A DNA stretch of 57,747 nucleotides, from assembly GCA_015490175.1 (NCBI GenBank), contig WFYJ01000063.1:1-57747 (forward strand). The letters run 5' to 3'. Position 1 is the stretch's first letter. Every line of letters begins with the position of its first letter. The stretch is from Saprospiraceae bacterium (GTDB taxonomy: Bacteria; Bacteroidota; Bacteroidia; Chitinophagales; Saprospiraceae). The notes beneath the pieces were generated by a model that had not been told where the DNA came from, made no database searches, and saw only the letters and a list, made by a program, of their open reading frames with translations. A program made the translations under genes and the position numbers. Below, piece by piece: positions 29,760 to 41,419 of this stretch.

Positions 29760-34082
<4,323 letters not shown>

Positions 34083-34112
34083 GGCGTACGCAGATACACA
34101 CGGATCAGCCAC

Positions 34113-34146
34113 AAGCCCCGGCAGCCCATTGCGGTTGTCGGGGCTT
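34113..34146 (+). terminator. Terminator-like hairpin after rpoC
   Basis: AAGCCCCGGCAGCC (34113-34126) pairs with the complementary arm 34133-34146 with two G-T pairs. It is followed only by TGG, so it lacks a full T tract. Confidence 0.65.
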
Positions 34147-34319
34147 TGGCGATGTTTGACAAAGGTTTGATGGTTGAGACCGCCTGGCGGATGTTGAGAC
34201 ACCGCTTGCGCGGTGCTGTTAAGCAGCCGTTTTTCCGGCGGCGGGAACAGGTTGCGGCTGGTTGAGTCGAACTACTGGATCGTACAGGTTCCGTCATTTG
34301 GGCAGATGACGGATAGTCA

Positions 34320-34650
34320 AGATGAAAAACTCACCCCTCAACTTGCTGCAAAAACTGCGTCAAGCTGCGTTTTCTGTGGCCGAAGGCTGCGGTTCAATGG
34401 ATGAGGAATCGAGGAACCGAAGAATCGAGGATTTGACAAAAACCTGATAGTCAACAAGAAAAACTTTAAACTTTAAACTCTAAACCCTCAACGCTACACC
34501 CTCAACCATTGCGACAGGATTTCCCAAACCACTTTGATTTGAGTATAAGAACACCACCCGCGAGATTTTTGCTTTTTTTCAGGGGCCTCAACCCTTGATC
34601 CCTTTTCTCCCCCAACAGAGAGGCCCCGACACGGACCGGAGTCGGGGCAT
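34320..34650 (+). repeat. Dispersed intergenic repeat, copy B
   Basis: The part at 34320-34509 repeats the blocks of copies A and C in the same order: AAAACTGCG, the CTGCGG-type core, GGATGAGGAA, GATTTGAC, then AAACTTTAAAC and CTCAACC tracts. It adds a duplicated GAGGAA(T/C)CGA unit. Further on, GAGATTTTT with TTTTTTCAGGGG (34560-34585) and a GCCCCGAC/GTCGGGGC hairpin (34623-34648) also resemble blocks next to copy C. The gap after rpoC (34083-34679) has no gene. Confidence 0.75.
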
Positions 34651-34679
34651 GTACTTTTCCGTTTGCACGCCGGGGCGCA

Positions 34680-36155
34680 TCAGAACTTGAACCCGAACGT
34701 CAGTATGAACTCCTGATTGCGCACGTCATTTTGCACCAGCGAGCGCGGGGCCACTGCGGTCTGGTAGGGTCGATATCCTTCCGAGAAAGCCGTGGCGCGC
34801 CATGCCAGATCGACGAACACGCCGCGCTCGCGGATGCCGGCACCCAGACTGTAGCCCAGGGTGAAGGAGTCGTCGTCCACGTAGGGCGAAGTAGCCAGAC
34901 TGACGCCGCCGCGCAACCGGAAGATGTCGGCGGCCCATTCGGCACCGGCCCGGAAGTTGACGGCCGACGTGTATTGTTCGGAAACCTGGTCGTTCAGTTG
35001 CGCTTCATACTGCAAATCATCCGGGTTGCTGGTGCGGTTGAACTCGAACGTGGCCGTGGCATAGTCCACCCACTCTACTGCCGCACTCACGAAGCCCGTC
35101 TTGTCGAACAGGTAGCCGGCGCTCAGCGACGCGCGCATGGGCGTGCGCAGGCGGTATTCGAAAAGGCCGTCGGGCGATTCGCCCTCGAAGCTGTTGGGGC
35201 CACCCAGTGTGAAGGCGTAGGCCATGCGCGTCTTGTAGGAATCTTCGAGCGCAAAGAGGGTGGGCGTCTGGAAGGCAAAGCCAAAGCGCGCGGCCTGCGA
35301 TGCCCGGTAGATCAGTCCCAGCCGCAGGTTGACCCCCGTGCCCCGCGTCGTCAGTCGCTCCTCGAATTCGAAGCGGTCGAAGGTGGGGATTTCGTCATTG
35401 ACATCTTCTTCTTCGTACAGTTTGGTCTCGGTGTAGAAGATGAAGGGCACGCCCACGGTGGCGCCGATCAGGAGCTTTTCGTCGTAATTGCCGGCGAATG
35501 AGAAAAACATTTCGCTCATGCCCCCGCCCGTAGTCACCTGCTGGCGTTTGGGCACCAGCGTGCCGGCGGGAATGTCATTGATGTAGGTCGTCTCATCGTT
35601 TGGGTCGGGGTTGAAGATGGCGCCCACCTCGTAGGCCAGCCCCGCCTCGAAGCCATCGAGCTGGTCGGGCGTCAGGCCGTCGGCCAGCTCCACGAAGCGA
35701 TCGGTGTAGGAGCCTTCCGAACGCCCTTCGTAGTAGAAGCGCTGGCGATAGTTGCCGCGGCGCACCACGCCAATGCCGAAGTTCACCGTTTTCCATCGGG
35801 AGGCATAGGGCCGCGAGGCGAACACGAAGCCTGCCTGCTCAAATCCGAAGTGAGTACGCTGCCGCTCATACACGGCATTGTCGGCGCCACTCAGTTGCGA
35901 GGTAGTCGTCGAGAAGAACAGAGCGGGCGAGAACGTAAACTCGCTGCGCCGGAATGCCGCCAGGCCCGCAGGGTTGAGCGTCATGGCGCCAAAATCGGCA
36001 CCCAGCGCCTCGAGCGAACCGCTCACCCCCAGCGTGCGGGCACTGCCGCCCAAGTCGAGCATCGAATAGCGAAGGGCATCGGTAGCCGTCTGTGTCCATC
36101 CGGCCAGGCTTGGCAGCATCAGGCACAGTATCCAGAGCGATTTCCACATTTTCAT
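34680..36155 (-). CDS. FadL/OmpP1-like outer-membrane transport protein
   Basis: The ATG at 36155 gives a signal peptide (MKMWKSLWILCLML, cut near GWTQ); 36149 is a possible alternative. The mature start, SMLDLGGSARTLGVSGS, and the ALGADFGAMTLNPAG segment with its NPAG motif are typical of the FadL/TodX porins that import hydrophobic molecules. The rest alternates polar and apolar residues, and the protein ends in FGFKF, a barrel-type C-terminus. The substrate is unknown. About 320 bp separate it from the next gene on the same strand; that gap holds one GAAA-hairpin word (36276-36286). Confidence 0.82.
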   Translation of the reverse strand: MKMWKSLWILCLMLPSLAGWTQTATDALRYSMLDLGGSARTLGVSGSLEALGADFGAMTLNPAGLAAFRRSEFTFSPALFFSTTTSQLSGADNAVYERQRTHFGFEQAGFVFASRPYASRWKTVNFGIGVVRRGNYRQRFYYEGRSEGSYTDRFVELADGLTPDQLDGFEAGLAYEVGAIFNPDPNDETTYINDIPAGTLVPKRQQVTTGGGMSEMFFSFAGNYDEKLLIGATVGVPFIFYTETKLYEEEDVNDEIPTFDRFEFEERLTTRGTGVNLRLGLIYRASQAARFGFAFQTPTLFALEDSYKTRMAYAFTLGGPNSFEGESPDGLFEYRLRTPMRASLSAGYLFDKTGFVSAAVEWVDYATATFEFNRTSNPDDLQYEAQLNDQVSEQYTSAVNFRAGAEWAADIFRLRGGVSLATSPYVDDDSFTLGYSLGAGIRERGVFVDLAWRATAFSEGYRPYQTAVAPRSLVQNDVRNQEFILTFGFKF

Positions 36156-36477
36156 AGGTCCAGTGATTTGAAGCAATTTAACCATGGCCCGGTGAGGCCT
36201 GTTCCTGTACGCTCCTTTTGCGACCATGGCGGCAAAGAAAAGTTTACCGGAACGATCGTTCCTCTTTTCCGTACCGCTTTCGCAAAAAGCAGAAAAAAAG
36301 CGGGCGAACGCGTTGCGACGAATCCACCCGCTTTGCAAAACAACGTATCAATAACCTGACTGTCTGGCAATGTCTTCGAAACCATTTCACGAAGGGACAC
36401 ACCCCTCCTCCCCTGCACCTGAAAGCAGGTAGCATGCGCATATCCCTGATTGCTCAAATCCAAAAGGCGGTAACACC

Positions 36478-37797
36478 TCAGTGGCCTCGCCCACGCGGCG
36501 AGCGGCTACGCGTGCTGCCACTGCTCGAGCGGCTCGGGCTGCTGCTGCGATAGCTGCCGCTCGAACGCGAGGGGCTCGCGCTGCGCGTACGGAAGCCGGG
36601 CGAGCTGCCGCGCGAGGGGCTGCTGAAGGTGCTGCGCGAGCGCGTGCTGCCCGAATGGTAGTTTCCTCGTGCGCGCGTCGAACGATTCGAGGGGTTGTAG
36701 CTGCCCCGCGTACGGCTCTGGTTGCCGCGACTGGGCGAGGTGGCGGGCGAAGTGCGACGCGCGCGCGTAGCGGGCTTGGCTGCCGGCGTACTGCGGCGCG
36801 TGCGCGTAGCCGGCTCATAGGCAGGCGGCGTGCTCGTCCGGCGCTCACGTGCAGGACTGGTCCGCGTTTCGCGGCGCGTGCGCGTGTCGGCGGCCGGCGT
36901 GGGCTCGTCGTCGGGCTGTACGGTGCCACGCGTGCGGCGGCCGGGCTCGTCGCCGGGTTGCGCGCTGCGGCGCGTGGTGGCCGGTTGCAGTTCGTTGTCC
37001 GGCTTTTTGCGGAGGGTAGTTGTCGTGCCATCGGCATTGCCCGGCTGGAGGGTTTCTTTCGTTTCCGAAAGGCGCGGCGTGGCATCTACGGGCGGGTTGC
37101 CGTTGTTGAAGTCGCGTACGGGCGTGCGCGGAGTCTTGGTCATGCCGGTGCGGCGGGCGCCGTAGTAGCTGTTGCCGGAATTGTTATTGGAGTCGTTGTA
37201 CCACCAGCCGCCACCGTAATTGTTGCCGTACCACCAGCCGCCGCCCGTCCAGTACGGATCGTAGTAGTTGTAACCGTACCAGCCGCTGCCGTAGTAGTAA
37301 TTGTTGACAAACACGTTGTTGCCATACCATCCGCCGGCACAGCTCCAGGGGCTGTACCAGTTGTTCCATGCGCTCCAGCGGTTCCACCGACGCCAGCGGC
37401 GCCAGCGCCAGTAGTCGTAGTCGTTGTAGATGTAGATGCTCACTCCCGGCTGGAAGAACGGATCGTAAAACCACGCATCGGTGTAGCAGGCATCGAAATA
37501 GCCAAAGCCGAAGTAGGGGCGATGGAAGCGCCGGATGCGCGAAGAGTAGTAGTACTCGTAGTAGTATCCATCGTCGTCATAGCGCTGCTCGGCGTAGTAT
37601 TTTTCGCCGTACTTCTGATCGTCGTCGAGCTGGTTGCGCTGATCGGTCGCCCGGTCCTGTGTGAAGCGGTCGCCATAGACGATGGCTTCGTCCGTGGCGG
37701 GATTGTAGTACAGGTCATCCCACTGGGCCTGAGCCCGAGGCAGGGCGGCTGCCACCACAGCCATGAGCAAGACCAATATGTAGCGAAGCGTTTTCAT
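36478..37797 (-). CDS. Secreted low-complexity protein: Tyr/Trp/Asn-rich then Arg/Ser-rich
   Basis: A signal peptide (1-24, ending AQAQ) precedes two unusual regions. Residues about 45-215 are extremely rich in Tyr, Trp, Asn and Gly (DDDGYYYEYYYSSRIRR, WRWRRWRRWNRW, GGGWWYGNNYGGGWW). Residues about 220-439 are an Arg/Ser/Thr/Pro-rich tail with dozens of RS, RT and SR pairs and no acidic clusters. It has no catalytic motif and no T9SS domain. The first half could be adhesive or aggregating and the second could bind polyanions such as nucleic acid or acidic polysaccharide; both are guesses. Function unknown. Confidence 0.75.
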   Translation of the reverse strand: MKTLRYILVLLMAVVAAALPRAQAQWDDLYYNPATDEAIVYGDRFTQDRATDQRNQLDDDQKYGEKYYAEQRYDDDGYYYEYYYSSRIRRFHRPYFGFGYFDACYTDAWFYDPFFQPGVSIYIYNDYDYWRWRRWRRWNRWSAWNNWYSPWSCAGGWYGNNVFVNNYYYGSGWYGYNYYDPYWTGGGWWYGNNYGGGWWYNDSNNNSGNSYYGARRTGMTKTPRTPVRDFNNGNPPVDATPRLSETKETLQPGNADGTTTTLRKKPDNELQPATTRRSAQPGDEPGRRTRGTVQPDDEPTPAADTRTRRETRTSPARERRTSTPPAYEPATRTRRSTPAAKPATRARRTSPATSPSRGNQSRTRGSYNPSNRSTRARGNYHSGSTRSRSTFSSPSRGSSPGFRTRSASPSRSSGSYRSSSPSRSSSGSTRSRSPRGRGH

Positions 37798-38040
37798 CTT
37801 CCGACAGTTTTCTGGTGAACAATCTGACCATCAAAGTCGCAGCTCGAAATTATTACTTTTGTGCCGCTTTTTGCGTTAAGGCCTGGCAAACAACCCGAAT
37901 GCGGGTGTTAAAAAACTTCATACAGGGCCTTAACATTTGGCGTATCGGGGCGGAGAAAATGTTAAAGTCCACCCTTTACCGATTCATTATCAATCTGTAA
38001 AAAATACAGTTAAAACGTGCTTTTGTTGCGGCGGGCCGTA

Positions 38041-38053
38041 TTTGCCGAAAGGC
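38041..38053 (+). repeat. GAAA-hairpin word upstream of proS
   Basis: TTTGCCGAAAGGC lies 43 bp before the proS start. The wider gap (37798-38096) separates divergent genes and has a TACTTTTG box at 37854-37861 on the plus strand but no gene. Confidence 0.85.
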
Positions 38054-38096
38054 GTAAAACAACCTTGCCGCCACATGCAAAAAGAAACCAACGATC

Positions 38097-39563
38097 ATGG
38101 CCAAGGAGATCACCCCTCGCAGTGAGGACTACTCGCAATGGTATATCGACATCGTCAAGAAGGCCCAACTGGCCGAAAACTCGGCCGTGCGTGGTTGTAT
38201 GGTCATCAAGCCCTATGGCTATGCCATCTGGGAAAACATGCAGGCCCAACTCGACCGCATGTTCAAGGAAACGGGCCACAAGAATGCTTATTTCCCGCTC
38301 TTCATCCCCAAAAGCTTCCTGAGCAAGGAAGCCGAGCACGTGGAAGGCTTTGCCAAGGAGTGCGCCGTGGTGACGCACCACCGCCTGATGAACGACCCCA
38401 ACGGCAAGGGCGTGGTGGTGGACCCCGATGCCAGGCTCGAAGAAGAGCTCATCGTGCGGCCCACCTCTGAAACGATCATCTGGAACACGTATCGCGACTG
38501 GATCCAGTCGTACCGCGACCTGCCGCTGCTCATCAACCAGTGGGCCAACGTAGTGCGCTGGGAGATGCGCACGCGGCTGTTCCTGCGCACGGCCGAGTTT
38601 CTGTGGCAGGAAGGGCATACGGCCCATGCCACGCGCGAAGAGGCCATCGAGGAAGCGCGCCTGATGCAACGCGTCTATGCGCAGTTTGCCGAAGAGTGGA
38701 TGGCCATGCCCGTGCTGCGCGGCGTCAAGACGGCCAACGAGCGTTTTGCCGGCGCCGAAGAGACCTATACCATCGAAGCGCTCATGCAGGACGGCAAGGC
38801 CCTGCAGGCCGGCACTTCGCACTTCCTCGGCCAGAATTTTGCGAAAGCATTCGACGTGAAGTTCCTCAATGAGCAAAACCAGGAAGCGTATGTATGGGCT
38901 ACGTCGTGGGGCGTCTCGACGCGCCTCATCGGCGGCCTGGTCATGACCCACAGCGACGACAACGGCCTGGTGCTGCCGCCCAAACTCGCGCCCGTCAAGG
39001 TGGTCATCGTGCCCATTCCCAAGCCGCGCCCCGAAATCGACGAAGTGGCCCACCGCCTCATGCGCGAGCTGCAAGAGCGCGGCCTGACGGTCGAATACGA
39101 CACGGACATGAAGAAGCGCCCGGGCTTCAAGTTTGCCGAACACGAAATGCGCGGCATTCCCGTGCGTCTGGGCATCGGCATGCGCGACCTGGAAAAGCAC
39201 CAGGTGGAAGTGGCGCGCCGCGACACGGGCGAAAAGACCTTCGTGCCCATCGAGGGCGTGGTGGACCACGTCATCGCCTTGCTCGACGACATCCAGCACA
39301 ACCTCTTCCAGCGCGCGCTGAAGTTCCGCGAAGAGCACACCACGCGCGTGGACACCTTCGACGAGTTCAAGGAGGTGTTGGAAACGAAAGGCGGTTTCGT
39401 GCTGGCCCACTGGGACGGCACCACCGAGACAGAGCTCAGGATCAAAGAGCTCACCAAGGCCACCATCCGCTGCATTCCCAACGATGTGGAAGAGGAGCCG
39501 GGCAAGTGCATCCTGACGGGCAAGCCCTCGAAATACCGGGTGGTGTTTGCGAAAGCGTATTGA
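38097..39563 (+). CDS. proS: Prolyl-tRNA synthetase, short archaeal/eukaryal type
   Basis: This class II synthetase charges tRNA-Pro. At 488 residues, with no editing insertion and starting [16 protein letters not shown], it belongs to the ProS type found in archaea, eukaryotes and some bacteria. Class II motifs are seen as RPTSE (motif 2 region) and the conserved [10 protein letters not shown]. Two GAAA-hairpin words lie inside (38838-38848 and 39546-39556), each coding FAKA; the second overlaps the last residues before the stop. A strong terminator follows. Confidence 0.94.
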
Positions 39564-39584
39564 TGTGCTGTACCTGCCAACCGC

Positions 39585-39625
39585 AAATCCCCCTTCGGCG
39601 TGGCCCGAGGGGGGATTTTTGTTTT
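39585..39625 (+). terminator. Intrinsic terminator after proS
   Basis: AAATCCCCC (39585-39593) pairs with GGGGGATTT (39610-39618), with inner TTCGG/CCGAG pairing, and the T-rich tail TTTTTGTTTT follows. Confidence 0.85.
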
Positions 39626-39702
39626 GTCGCTTCCGCAAAAAGCGCCCTGCGCCGTGCCGCCTCCGCCTTTTTCGGGCGGGGTGTGCAGCCTGTGGAAAGC
39701 GC

Positions 39703-39710
39703 TACCTTTG
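39703..39710 (+). promoter_or_regulatory. -7 box upstream of the small acidic protein
   Basis: TACCTTTG lies 22 bp before the ATG at 39733. No clear -33 element is seen. Confidence 0.4.
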
Positions 39711-39732
39711 CGCTGCATCAAACGCGCAATCC

Positions 39733-40242
39733 ATGCCTTTTGTACCCGAATCTGCCATCGGGCAAGTGCTCGAAGCGCTGGCACATACGCCCCCCGAACG
39801 CTACGAGGCGCTCACCGTAGCCTTCGCCGATGCCCAGCCCGTGCTGGCTGGCTGGCTCGTCTCGGATACCTTCGACATCCTCACCGAAGCCGAACGCGAA
39901 TACCTGCTCTATCTGGCGCTGGTCATCTGGAAAGCGGCTACCGAGGTGGCCGGCGAGCTGCCCGTGGCCGACGAAGCCCTCATCGGCGAGCTGGAAGAGC
40001 GCAACTGGGCCATGCTCAACGCAACGAAAGCCGGCCCCTTTCGCCAACGCCTCGACCCCTTTTTCGAAAAATATCCTCAGGAAGACCTCTTGGCTTTTGT
40101 CGAGGACGCGCTCGCAATAGAGGAAGAAAGTGACGAGGACGCGCCCGAGCTCGAAGTGACGCGCGAAGGCCGCGAACCCCTCTTCATCGCCCTCAAGACC
40201 GTGATCGACGCCCTGCTCGTGGCCCCTGCTACCAGGGACTGA
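39733..40242 (+). CDS. Hypothetical acidic protein
   Basis: This 169-residue protein is mostly helical and acidic, with an acidic patch near the C-terminus (EEESDEDAPELE). No signal peptide, membrane segment or known motif is visible. I chose the ATG at 39733 because it lies just after a -7 box; the frame is open further upstream but overlaps the proS terminator. Its last 14 bases overlap the end of the convergent acyltransferase gene. Function unknown. Confidence 0.7.
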   Translation: MPFVPESAIGQVLEALAHTPPERYEALTVAFADAQPVLAGWLVSDTFDILTEAEREYLLYLALVIWKAATEVAGELPVADEALIGELEERNWAMLNATKAGPFRQRLDPFFEKYPQEDLLAFVEDALAIEEESDEDAPELEVTREGREPLFIALKTVIDALLVAPATRD

Positions 40243-41191
40243 AGCCGCGCAGCCGGTGGAGCAGCGCAAAAGGTGCCGAACGGTATCGCCACAACCGGAA
40301 GTAGGGCTCCTGCTCGGCGCCAAAGGCCATGCGCACCGGCGCCACATGTGGCAACATGCTCCCCTCGAAGTCGAACACAGGAATGCCCTGCCCGATGGCG
40401 TACCGAATGGCGCGCCAGGTGAGCAGGATGCCTGCGCCGCTGTGGCGCAGCGCCGGATCTTCGCCCGCCAGGTGATACCACGCACGGTTCCCGTCCCGGA
40501 TCAGCATCGAGGCGGCATGGATGCGTCCTTGCTCGTCCTCGGCAAAAAAATACCGCACCTGGCCCCGCGCACGCAGGGCGGCATCGAGGCGCTGCAACGA
40601 CGCGAAGGAATAGTAAATGTCGCGGCCCTGCCGCTGAAAACTCATTCGGTTGATGCGGTAGAAGGTGGCCAGGTCGTGGTGGTGCGTCACGCGCAAGCGC
40701 CGTTCGGCTTTGCGGATGTTGCGGCGCACGTTGCGGTTGGCGCGTGCCAGCACCGCATCGGCATCGTGCAGAGGGCGCAGCACGTAGGTGTAGCGCGTCG
40801 TTTGGCGAAAGCCGCGCCAGTAGAATGGCAAGTGGTTGGTCAGCTGCGGAGGGAAATCCTGGATGAAAAAGGCCAGTTGCGGCAGTTGGTCGAGCAGGGC
40901 GTCGTAATACTCGTGGGTGTGTTTGAGCTGCCGCAGGTCGGGATGGAGCCACGGGCCCATGTGTTTCACGTGCAGCGGCATGGTGACGTAGCGCCACCAG
41001 GCCAATCGCCTGACGAACAGCGGCCATACAGCCAGTACCGAGCGGTCGCGCTGCACCACGAGGGGCAGCCAGCCCTCGCTGCCACAGCACGCGTCGAGGT
41101 ACCAGGGCTGCATGAACAGCGGCACGTCGGGCACCTGCTGGCAAAATCGTTCGTATGCCTGGCGGCTCATGGGTCGGGACTTGTCTTGCAT
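40229..41191 (-). CDS. FemAB/GNAT-fold acyltransferase-like protein
   Basis: This 320-residue protein resembles the BioF2-like/FemAB acetyltransferase fold: RNVRRNIRKAERR with the following helix, YYSFASLQRL, and a late AGILLTWRAIRYAIGQGIPVFDFEGS block. Relatives transfer amino acids or acyl groups to peptidoglycan or other envelope molecules; the substrate here is unknown. I place the start at 41191 (MQDKSRPMSR). The frame stays open upstream, but only because a 9-bp tandem repeat is a multiple of three, giving Thr/Asp/Ser repeats unlike a protein N-terminus. ATG 41170 is another option. A GAAA-hairpin word is at 40801-40813. Confidence 0.72.
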   Translation of the reverse strand: MQDKSRPMSRQAYERFCQQVPDVPLFMQPWYLDACCGSEGWLPLVVQRDRSVLAVWPLFVRRLAWWRYVTMPLHVKHMGPWLHPDLRQLKHTHEYYDALLDQLPQLAFFIQDFPPQLTNHLPFYWRGFRQTTRYTYVLRPLHDADAVLARANRNVRRNIRKAERRLRVTHHHDLATFYRINRMSFQRQGRDIYYSFASLQRLDAALRARGQVRYFFAEDEQGRIHAASMLIRDGNRAWYHLAGEDPALRHSGAGILLTWRAIRYAIGQGIPVFDFEGSMLPHVAPVRMAFGAEQEPYFRLWRYRSAPFALLHRLRGFSPW

Positions 41192-41227
41192 CAGGGTGGT
41201 CCGGGAAATTCCGATGGCAAACGTGGT

Positions 41228-41308
41228 CAAATCGGTGCAATCGGTGTAATCGGTCAAATCGGTTAAACCGGTCGAATCGGTTAAACCGGTCGAATCGGTC
41301 GAATCGGT
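41228..41308. repeat. Nine tandem 9-bp units
   Basis: Nine units of the form NNAA(T/C)CGGT run without a break: CAAATCGGT, GCAATCGGT, GTAATCGGT, CAAATCGGT, TAAACCGGT, CGAATCGGT, TAAACCGGT, CGAATCGGT, CGAATCGGT. They are followed at 41330-41362 by TCACTCC-type repeats. The array lies in the gap between the divergent acyltransferase and methyltransferase genes. Confidence 0.9.
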
Positions 41309-41419
41309 ACTCCTCACTCTTCTCTCTATCACTCCGTCACTCATTCACTCCCTCACTCCGTCTCAAAATTCCCGAATCGGATTGCGTTGGGTATATCTTC
41401 GCAGGCCAAAGTAATCAAA

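Follow-up and report, generated by a model that had tools for sequence, protein, structure and literature searches.

Gene X of a Saprospiraceae bacterium encodes an exported three-block low-complexity protein that recurs next to a FadL-type outer-membrane barrel in many families of Bacteroidota

Gene X and the gene of a FadL-type outer-membrane barrel next to it form a pair that most sampled families of a large class have kept, and the first member of this pair has no match in Pfam or NCBIfam. The likeliest explanation, to which we give about an even chance, is that X is intrinsically disordered, is associated with the outer membrane, and acts as a partner of the adjacent barrel. Its computed support is that X has an export signal, that the arrangement in three blocks and the motif at the N-terminus are found again across the phylum, and that X adjoins the barrel at most loci read, in two lineages also away from the proS gene. 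The pair points to a common but so far unstudied component of the outer membrane in Bacteroidota.

Results

Gene X is located at 36478-37797 on the minus strand of the window, by which we mean the whole analysed stretch of 57,747 nucleotides. It starts with ATG, ends with the stop codon at 36478-36480, and encodes 439 residues; all its segments given below are on the minus strand. Residues 1-24 (37726-37797), MKTLRYILVLLMAVVAAALPRAQA, were read by eye as a type I-like signal peptide that ends in RAQA, and a lipobox is absent from it. The mature protein would then begin with the conserved stretch QWDDLYYNP (residues 25-33, 37699-37725), which corresponds to the motif D[DG][VILM]Y[YF] in the alignments A1, A2, A4, and A6. 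The first block is an acidic Tyr-rich head (residues 25-85, 37543-37725) with 12 Asp, four Glu, and 13 Tyr and a net charge of -10. The core motif YYYSSRIRRFHRP (residues 82-94, 37516-37554) consists of invariant or nearly invariant columns in A2 and A4 and is among the best-conserved parts of X in the window's family. The core and the Tyr/Trp/Asn/Gly-rich region (residues 86-215, 37153-37542, net charge +4) contain 23 Tyr, 16 Trp, eight Phe, 16 Asn, and 18 Gly, and include the RW-rich run WRRWRRWNRW. The remainder is a basic Arg/Ser/Thr/Pro-rich tail (residues 216-439, 36481-37152, net charge +30) with 41 Arg, 37 Ser, 34 Thr, and 27 Pro.

The preliminary description of a secreted protein joining a Tyr/Trp/Asn-rich region to an Arg/Ser-rich tail agrees with the predicted signal peptide and with the composition of the segments. 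Of the RS/RT repeats that it also mentioned, the combined alternation is above that of shuffled tails: RS, SR, RT, and TR dipeptides together number 41 in the tail compared with 26.1 (sd 3.9) in shuffled sequences, a value reached in one of 2000 shuffles. In contrast, RS and SR alone (18 compared with 13.6) were reached in 206 of 2000 shuffles and are not significant. The charge separation between head and tail is 38 compared with 3.8 (sd 7.9) after shuffling and was reached in none of 5000 shuffles. The structure model of X, with a mean pLDDT of 45.4 and a single low-confidence helix, is uninformative. X is predicted to be mostly unstructured, which fits a disordered chain, although low pLDDT values alone are no proof of disorder.

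The nearest relative, found on a contig of a metagenome-assembled Saprospiraceae genome from the genus of the window (L021, the same DNA as G001), has 60% amino-acid identity to X over 401 codons. Most of the differences are at third codon positions (0.33/0.25/0.61 for the three positions), so that the reading frame of X is under selection. The dN value is 0.34 overall and 0.14 in the core, which is the most conserved part, while dS is saturated. Opposite to X there is an open frame of 445 residues (36481-37818, plus strand). No internal stop codon is present in 24 of the 25 X matches, the window included; the match in G029 has one TAG. A GC-driven artefact is made unlikely by the codon-position differences together with the locus GC of the relatives, which ranges from 0.27 to 0.68.

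Searched as a single protein, X matches no domain of any kind in Pfam (E<=10), and nothing in NCBIfam (E<=1), in the PDB sequences (E<=1), or in PHROGs (E<=0.1). At the gathering threshold, Rfam finds no RNA in 34000-40000. An RNA-recognition or other RNA-binding domain is likewise absent from the Pfam (E<=10) and NCBIfam (E<=1) results, and so is a C-terminal sorting domain of the type IX secretion system (T9SS) at NCBIfam E<=1, a library that presumably includes models of such domains; the C-terminus of X is Arg/Ser-rich. With neither a frameshift in X nor a similarity to an ordinary family, the earlier view that no family is recognised holds for the single protein. When the X profile was compared with the PDB, the weak top match was the mitochondrial ribosomal protein mL77 over the tail (6e-5), and another weak match was a construct of the release-factor GTP-binding subunit over the aromatic part (0.0026), which we take to be a prion domain. 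In the literature search, nothing confirmed that 'Vitellogenin II' is an old automatic name for X-like genes, as we assume it to be.

X is nevertheless a family and not an isolated low-complexity open reading frame. The whole protein matches 25 of 40 genomes including its own, thus 24 of the 39 others, and when public genomes were scanned in degenerate form for a core fragment of 48 residues, at least 185 relatives were confirmed. The best 80 of these are the named loci discussed below, and the core profile locates X in 116 loci including all of these 80. The core profile built from A2 reaches far fewer genomes than reading by position did. Because it matched just 12 of 296 genomes of the phylum, the own genome counted, the DNA opposite proS was read directly. 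In distant families, X was identified by eye, and its position, its N-terminal motif, and its composition counted as much as the alignment did. The phylum set comprises 40 regions taken from 148 genomes, each of which has some proS match. X is present at proS in 27 of these 40 regions, namely in 22 of the 24 that belong to the window's class and in five of 16 from other classes; in the other classes X is absent at the proS locus in 11 of 16 regions. Of the 129 genomes searched for the class set, 124 have a proS match, and with one region for each of 40 families X was found at proS in 33 families. The proposed search for homologues beyond the genus has thus revealed relatives in many families across the phylum, which rules out a genus-level oddity. 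X is of low complexity and diverges fast, so that sequence search alone underestimates its distribution, and it is the position before the barrel together with the order of charges that reveals it.

The order of acidic head, aromatic middle, and basic tail recurs across the phylum, so that the composition, whose conservation had been proposed as a check, is indeed conserved. All three blocks were found in order in all 73 named loci (the 80 minus seven with a cut X frame), in 23 of 27 proteins of the phylum set, and in 32 of 33 of the class set, compared with 17 of 686 other open reading frames from the same loci. Among the four exceptions in the phylum set and the one in the class set, L187 and L203 probably result from misjudged start codons. 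A loose pattern of the N-terminal motif is present in 126 of 133 proteins (71 of 73 named, 23 of 27 phylum, and 32 of 33 class). According to the alignments, the Asp and the Tyr at the mature N-terminus are invariant, and the RIRRF core is most conserved within the window's family. When 115 X proteins were split at the core motif, the heads were net negative except for the cut protein L036 (zero), and the tails net positive except for L016 and L058, which are cut and tail-less. For 179 X relatives, the last 40% of the protein is net positive in every case, a basic residue is found within the last four positions in 170, and the charge separation has z>2 in 149. In these 179 proteins the Lys share of the basic tail residues goes up as GC goes down (Spearman -0.41), which suggests that the tail conserves its charge and not an RS code. 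Among the 153 proteins whose 5' end is not lost at a locus border, the length varies between 198 and 666 residues with a median of 444.

The N-terminus is where the window's family differs from the others. A lipobox pattern was counted in 22 of 27 proteins of the phylum set and 28 of 33 of the class set compared with six of 73 in the named loci, the pattern being simple and the counts including a few doubtful cases. In other families the D[DG][VILM]Y[YF] motif mostly follows about 8-18 residues after the lipobox. Some variants deserve mention as well. Family f17 (L175-L178) encodes short X proteins of 198-247 residues that have a Ser-rich tail and no RIRRF core; some carry an RYLRMK-like segment.

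The next gene downstream of X (34680-36155, minus strand) encodes the barrel, which has 491 residues when the start is chosen by sequence. An AlphaFold2 model computed with an alignment of 44 rows has a mean pLDDT of 93.3, and the best Foldseek rows are chain F of the Bacteroides thetaiotaomicron BamADG entry 9hiv and Escherichia coli FadL. In VIA-align, CymD, TbuX, FadL, and TodX lead the ranking at Z 31-33, their entries together span Z 28.5-33.0 over 323-368 residues (rmsd 3.0-4.1), chains of the BAM entries 9n2d, 9hjm, and 9hiv score Z 29.0-30.3, and chains of the T9SS entries 8gl6 and 6h3i about 26. Within A5, the Asn and Pro of the NPA motif are invariant and the Ala is present in at least 90%. 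Going by its model, the barrel is a member of the FadL superfamily with an N-terminal hatch and the NPA motif, and the gap in Z between FadL-type channels and BAM chains is too small to tell its function. With the Pfam model PF03349 (cut-off 29.7), the barrel of the window scores 25.6, below the cut-off, and the barrel of L181 passes it with 41 bits. An assignment as BamG was rejected, because the barrel scores 32.7 bits with NF053685 (cut-off 250) and a better BamG match is found on another contig of the source genome (C49, 27376-28614, 232.3 bits, E 1e-68), itself below 250. PorV and PorQ were rejected based on 25.2 bits with NF033709 (PorV_fam, cut-off 90). A search of the source genome found no close second copy of the barrel. 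Concerning the BamG model itself, 254 of 296 genomes of the phylum match it but only 114 score above the cut-off. Among the matches listed, those immediately under the cut-off have 242-248 bits, so that the value of 250 bits may be strict.

Upstream of X and divergent from it is proS (38097-39563, plus strand), which encodes a proline--tRNA ligase (TIGR00408, 543.9 bits, cut-off 437). The gap between X and the barrel is 322 nucleotides in the window, and elsewhere it ranges from 7 to 510 nucleotides in 68 named loci and from 16 to 419 in the order sample described below. A terminator-like hairpin with a T run was seen by eye in this gap (36293-36332, minus strand). The RNA fold of 36288-36345 has -22.8 kcal/mol and a z of -2.89, equalled in two of 200 shuffles, and a consensus terminator scan does not have the hairpin among its calls. 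Because the gap holds this terminator-like hairpin, co-transcription of X and the barrel is doubtful in the source species. Further along, the window contains at 41225-41308 about nine copies of a 9-base tandem unit, GGTCAAATC, that can also be read as a 27-base unit; the array lies at the 5' side of an open reading frame at 40229-41344 (minus strand) and encodes its repetitive Thr/Asp-rich start TDSTDSTGLTD...

Among the named loci, the best 80 of at least 185, the barrel follows X in 73. In six of the other seven the sequence stops inside X or shortly behind it; the remaining one, L087 of Saprospira grandis, has a full flank after X in which no barrel match was found. The phylum set has the barrel after X in 26 of 27 cases, with an isocitrate-dehydrogenase-like gene in its place at L174. 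In the class set it comes directly after X in 31 of 33, while the contig ends at L240 and L245 has a cysteine-synthase-like gene. X is thus without an adjoining barrel in L174, L245, and L087, and the barrel without an adjoining X in L308 and L260. On the far side of X, proS is also present in 73 of these best 80 loci. Of the seven without it, L031, L036, and L068 are cut, and L033, L064, L075, and L100 have full flanks.

X and the barrel also occur together away from proS. Fifteen genomes, three positives among them, were searched with a barrel profile. In G383 and G267, two genomes without X beside proS, the barrel is encoded at another place, and X directly precedes it there. Given these two cases and the four loci with full flanks and no proS, we judge proS incidental and have rejected it as a functional partner. 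The relocated X of G383 (L257, 3-1435, plus strand), directly before its barrel, is read in two frames, which is either a frameshift or an assembly error. G430 has a barrel elsewhere without X. In G348 the barrel is near proS and is preceded by a short lipoprotein with a DDAY motif and a basic tail (L262, 2959-3444, minus strand). This lipoprotein has a lipobox, the motif as GDDAYR, a Lys/Pro-rich tail, and no aromatic block; as a naturally occurring variant, it may reveal which of the blocks are important in X. Five further genomes without X at proS (G382, G365, G354, G079, and G137) and three of the family of G382 without that type of proS (G343, G413, and G442) contain no barrel match better than 9e-11. 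In these eight genomes the X profile found no convincing X either, but this profile is insensitive, as it also missed the X of G267 and gave just 1.2e-4 in the positive G172, so that the absence of X in the eight is weak evidence. Weak matches of profile A6 in G343 and G413 (best 4.3e-5) turned out on reading to be other lipoproteins.

In the order of G267, which we guess to be the Bacteroidales, the barrel was found at E<=1e-30 in 57 of 60 genomes. The DNA upstream was read for 50 barrels, 30 from the loci of this search and 20 further ones. An X-like open reading frame is found upstream in 46 of the 50, of which 26 lose their 5' end at the border of the locus, and in L286 and L299, on short contigs, just the tail of X is visible. 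Of the 49 loci that can be read, 48 thus have X upstream of the barrel; it is absent from L308, and the contig of L297 is too short.

Discussion

How could X be a partner of the barrel? X would be held at the outer membrane either by its own lipid or by the barrel, and the conserved segment behind the lipid anchor, or in the window's family behind the signal-peptide cleavage site, would dock X to the barrel. We infer this docking because the lipidated N-terminal tail of BamH sits in a groove on the FadL-type barrel BamG, as stated in excerpts of PMC12611786, and because a putative bamG2-bamH2 operon is mentioned in excerpts of PMC12578637. The long polyampholyte body would be located in the periplasm, a side that is suggested because X lacks the published export signals. 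Its basic tail might bind anionic polymers of the envelope, peptidoglycan or lipopolysaccharide being the best guess, or might self-associate, and X could thereby hold, gate, or help to assemble the barrel. Having no lipid anchor in its sequence, X of the window's family could also be released. Points that speak against a partnership are the gap of 322 nucleotides with its hairpin in the window, and the loci at which X or the barrel lacks the other as a neighbour.

A more far-reaching and rather doubtful idea is that barrel and X form an unnamed envelope module of the Bacteroidota, in which a FadL-type barrel has on its periplasmic side a dedicated disordered polyampholyte whose three blocks build a dynamic layer, a condensate, or a cell-wall tether under the outer membrane. 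If this were true, the module would do by disorder what folded lipoproteins do in Proteobacteria, where we know of no counterpart of X.

The preliminary description also suggested an adhesive or matrix role. X would then be a surface or extracellular protein that attaches cells to surfaces or polyanions through its aromatic and basic blocks, with the barrel as its exporter or an unrelated neighbour. Such a role fits the aromatic and basic composition, as well as the signal peptide, which in the window's family has no lipobox and might allow release after cleavage. However, X has no NCBIfam match at E<=1 and hence none to a T9SS sorting domain, and the frequent single neighbourhood with one barrel is in our judgement unusual for an adhesin. 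The surface-export signals of Bacteroidota lipoproteins given in excerpts of PMC5080379 are C-X-K-(D/E)2-X, SDDDD, and SDDFE. Such an acidic signal is found neither in X of the window, which has no lipobox, nor in most relatives with the lipobox pattern, of which two of 56 have an acidic residue at +2 to +5. A lipobox without a published surface-export signal in most relatives outside the window's family argues, though inconclusively, against an adhesive or matrix role, which we consider unlikely.

X might instead serve in assembly or quality control, either as a disordered chaperone of the periplasm or as a stress lipoprotein, and help to make the barrel or, more broadly, the outer membrane. 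In Flavobacterium johnsoniae, the lipoprotein Fjoh_4940 is encoded close to the FadL homologue Fjoh_4941, and a functional link of the two has been suggested (excerpts of PMC12045153). According to the same excerpts, depletion of TamL raises Fjoh_4940 2.6-fold and Fjoh_4941 5.6-fold in the outer membrane, while Fjoh_4941 goes down in vesicles (0.4). These two may be an X-barrel pair, and if this guess is right their rise would fit an assembly factor; apart from this possible link, the open-licence literature in PMC yielded nothing that can be attributed to X. On the other hand, some genomes of 2.2-5.7 Mb yielded neither the barrel nor X, and a factor of this kind seems improbable to us.

Another possibility is an envelope tether that is independent of the barrel, with the N-terminus at the outer membrane, the tail on peptidoglycan, and the adjacency caused by shared regulation. 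The lipobox pattern in most other families, the basic tail in all 179 of 179 relatives, and the persistence of X without a barrel neighbour in L174, L245, and L087 would be expected of such a tether. In our judgement, however, the co-location away from proS and the joint absence of both genes exceed what shared regulation usually keeps, so that independence of the barrel is not likely. That X is a nucleic-acid-binding, phase-separating RS-like protein of eukaryotic style, as its composition, the RS/RT alternation above shuffles, and the weak composition matches to the release-factor construct and the ribosomal protein might suggest, is very improbable, because X is exported, contains no Pfam domain at E<=10, can have Lys in place of Arg, and has RS/SR dipeptides alone not above shuffles.

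If X partners the barrel, the pair would be another FadL-type barrel system of the Bacteroidota beside BamG in BAM and PorV in secretion. It would also give an example from nature of a disordered protein with patterned charges that acts outside the cytoplasm.

Comparison with known systems

The likeness of X to eukaryotic phase-separating proteins is compositional and without a recognised domain. X shares with eukaryotic SR and prion-like RNA-binding proteins the aromatic low-complexity and the Arg/Ser-rich sequence. The resemblance to eukaryotic RNA-binding proteins in the preliminary description stands for the composition, and X differs in the absence of a Pfam domain and in the exchange of Arg for Lys; unlike those proteins, X is exported, bacterial, and equipped with a conserved acidic head. 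The barrel has the same fold as the FadL, TodX, and TbuX channels (PF03349), including N-terminal helical segments and the NPA motif, but shares just 13-18% identity with the solved FadL-type channels. PorV of type IX secretion is a FadL-superfamily barrel as well, and the barrel described here scores below the PorV_fam cut-off. Fjoh_4940 and Fjoh_4941, a possible X-barrel pair, resemble X and the barrel in that a lipoprotein gene is near the gene of a FadL homologue. A further parallel is BamG-BamH, together with bamG2-bamH2, in which a FadL-superfamily barrel of the same fold as the barrel here carries the N-terminal tail of a lipoprotein. BamH, however, is a folded surface lipoprotein according to excerpts of PMC12611786, whereas X has no surface-export signal and is, by its model, a mostly unstructured protein of three blocks.
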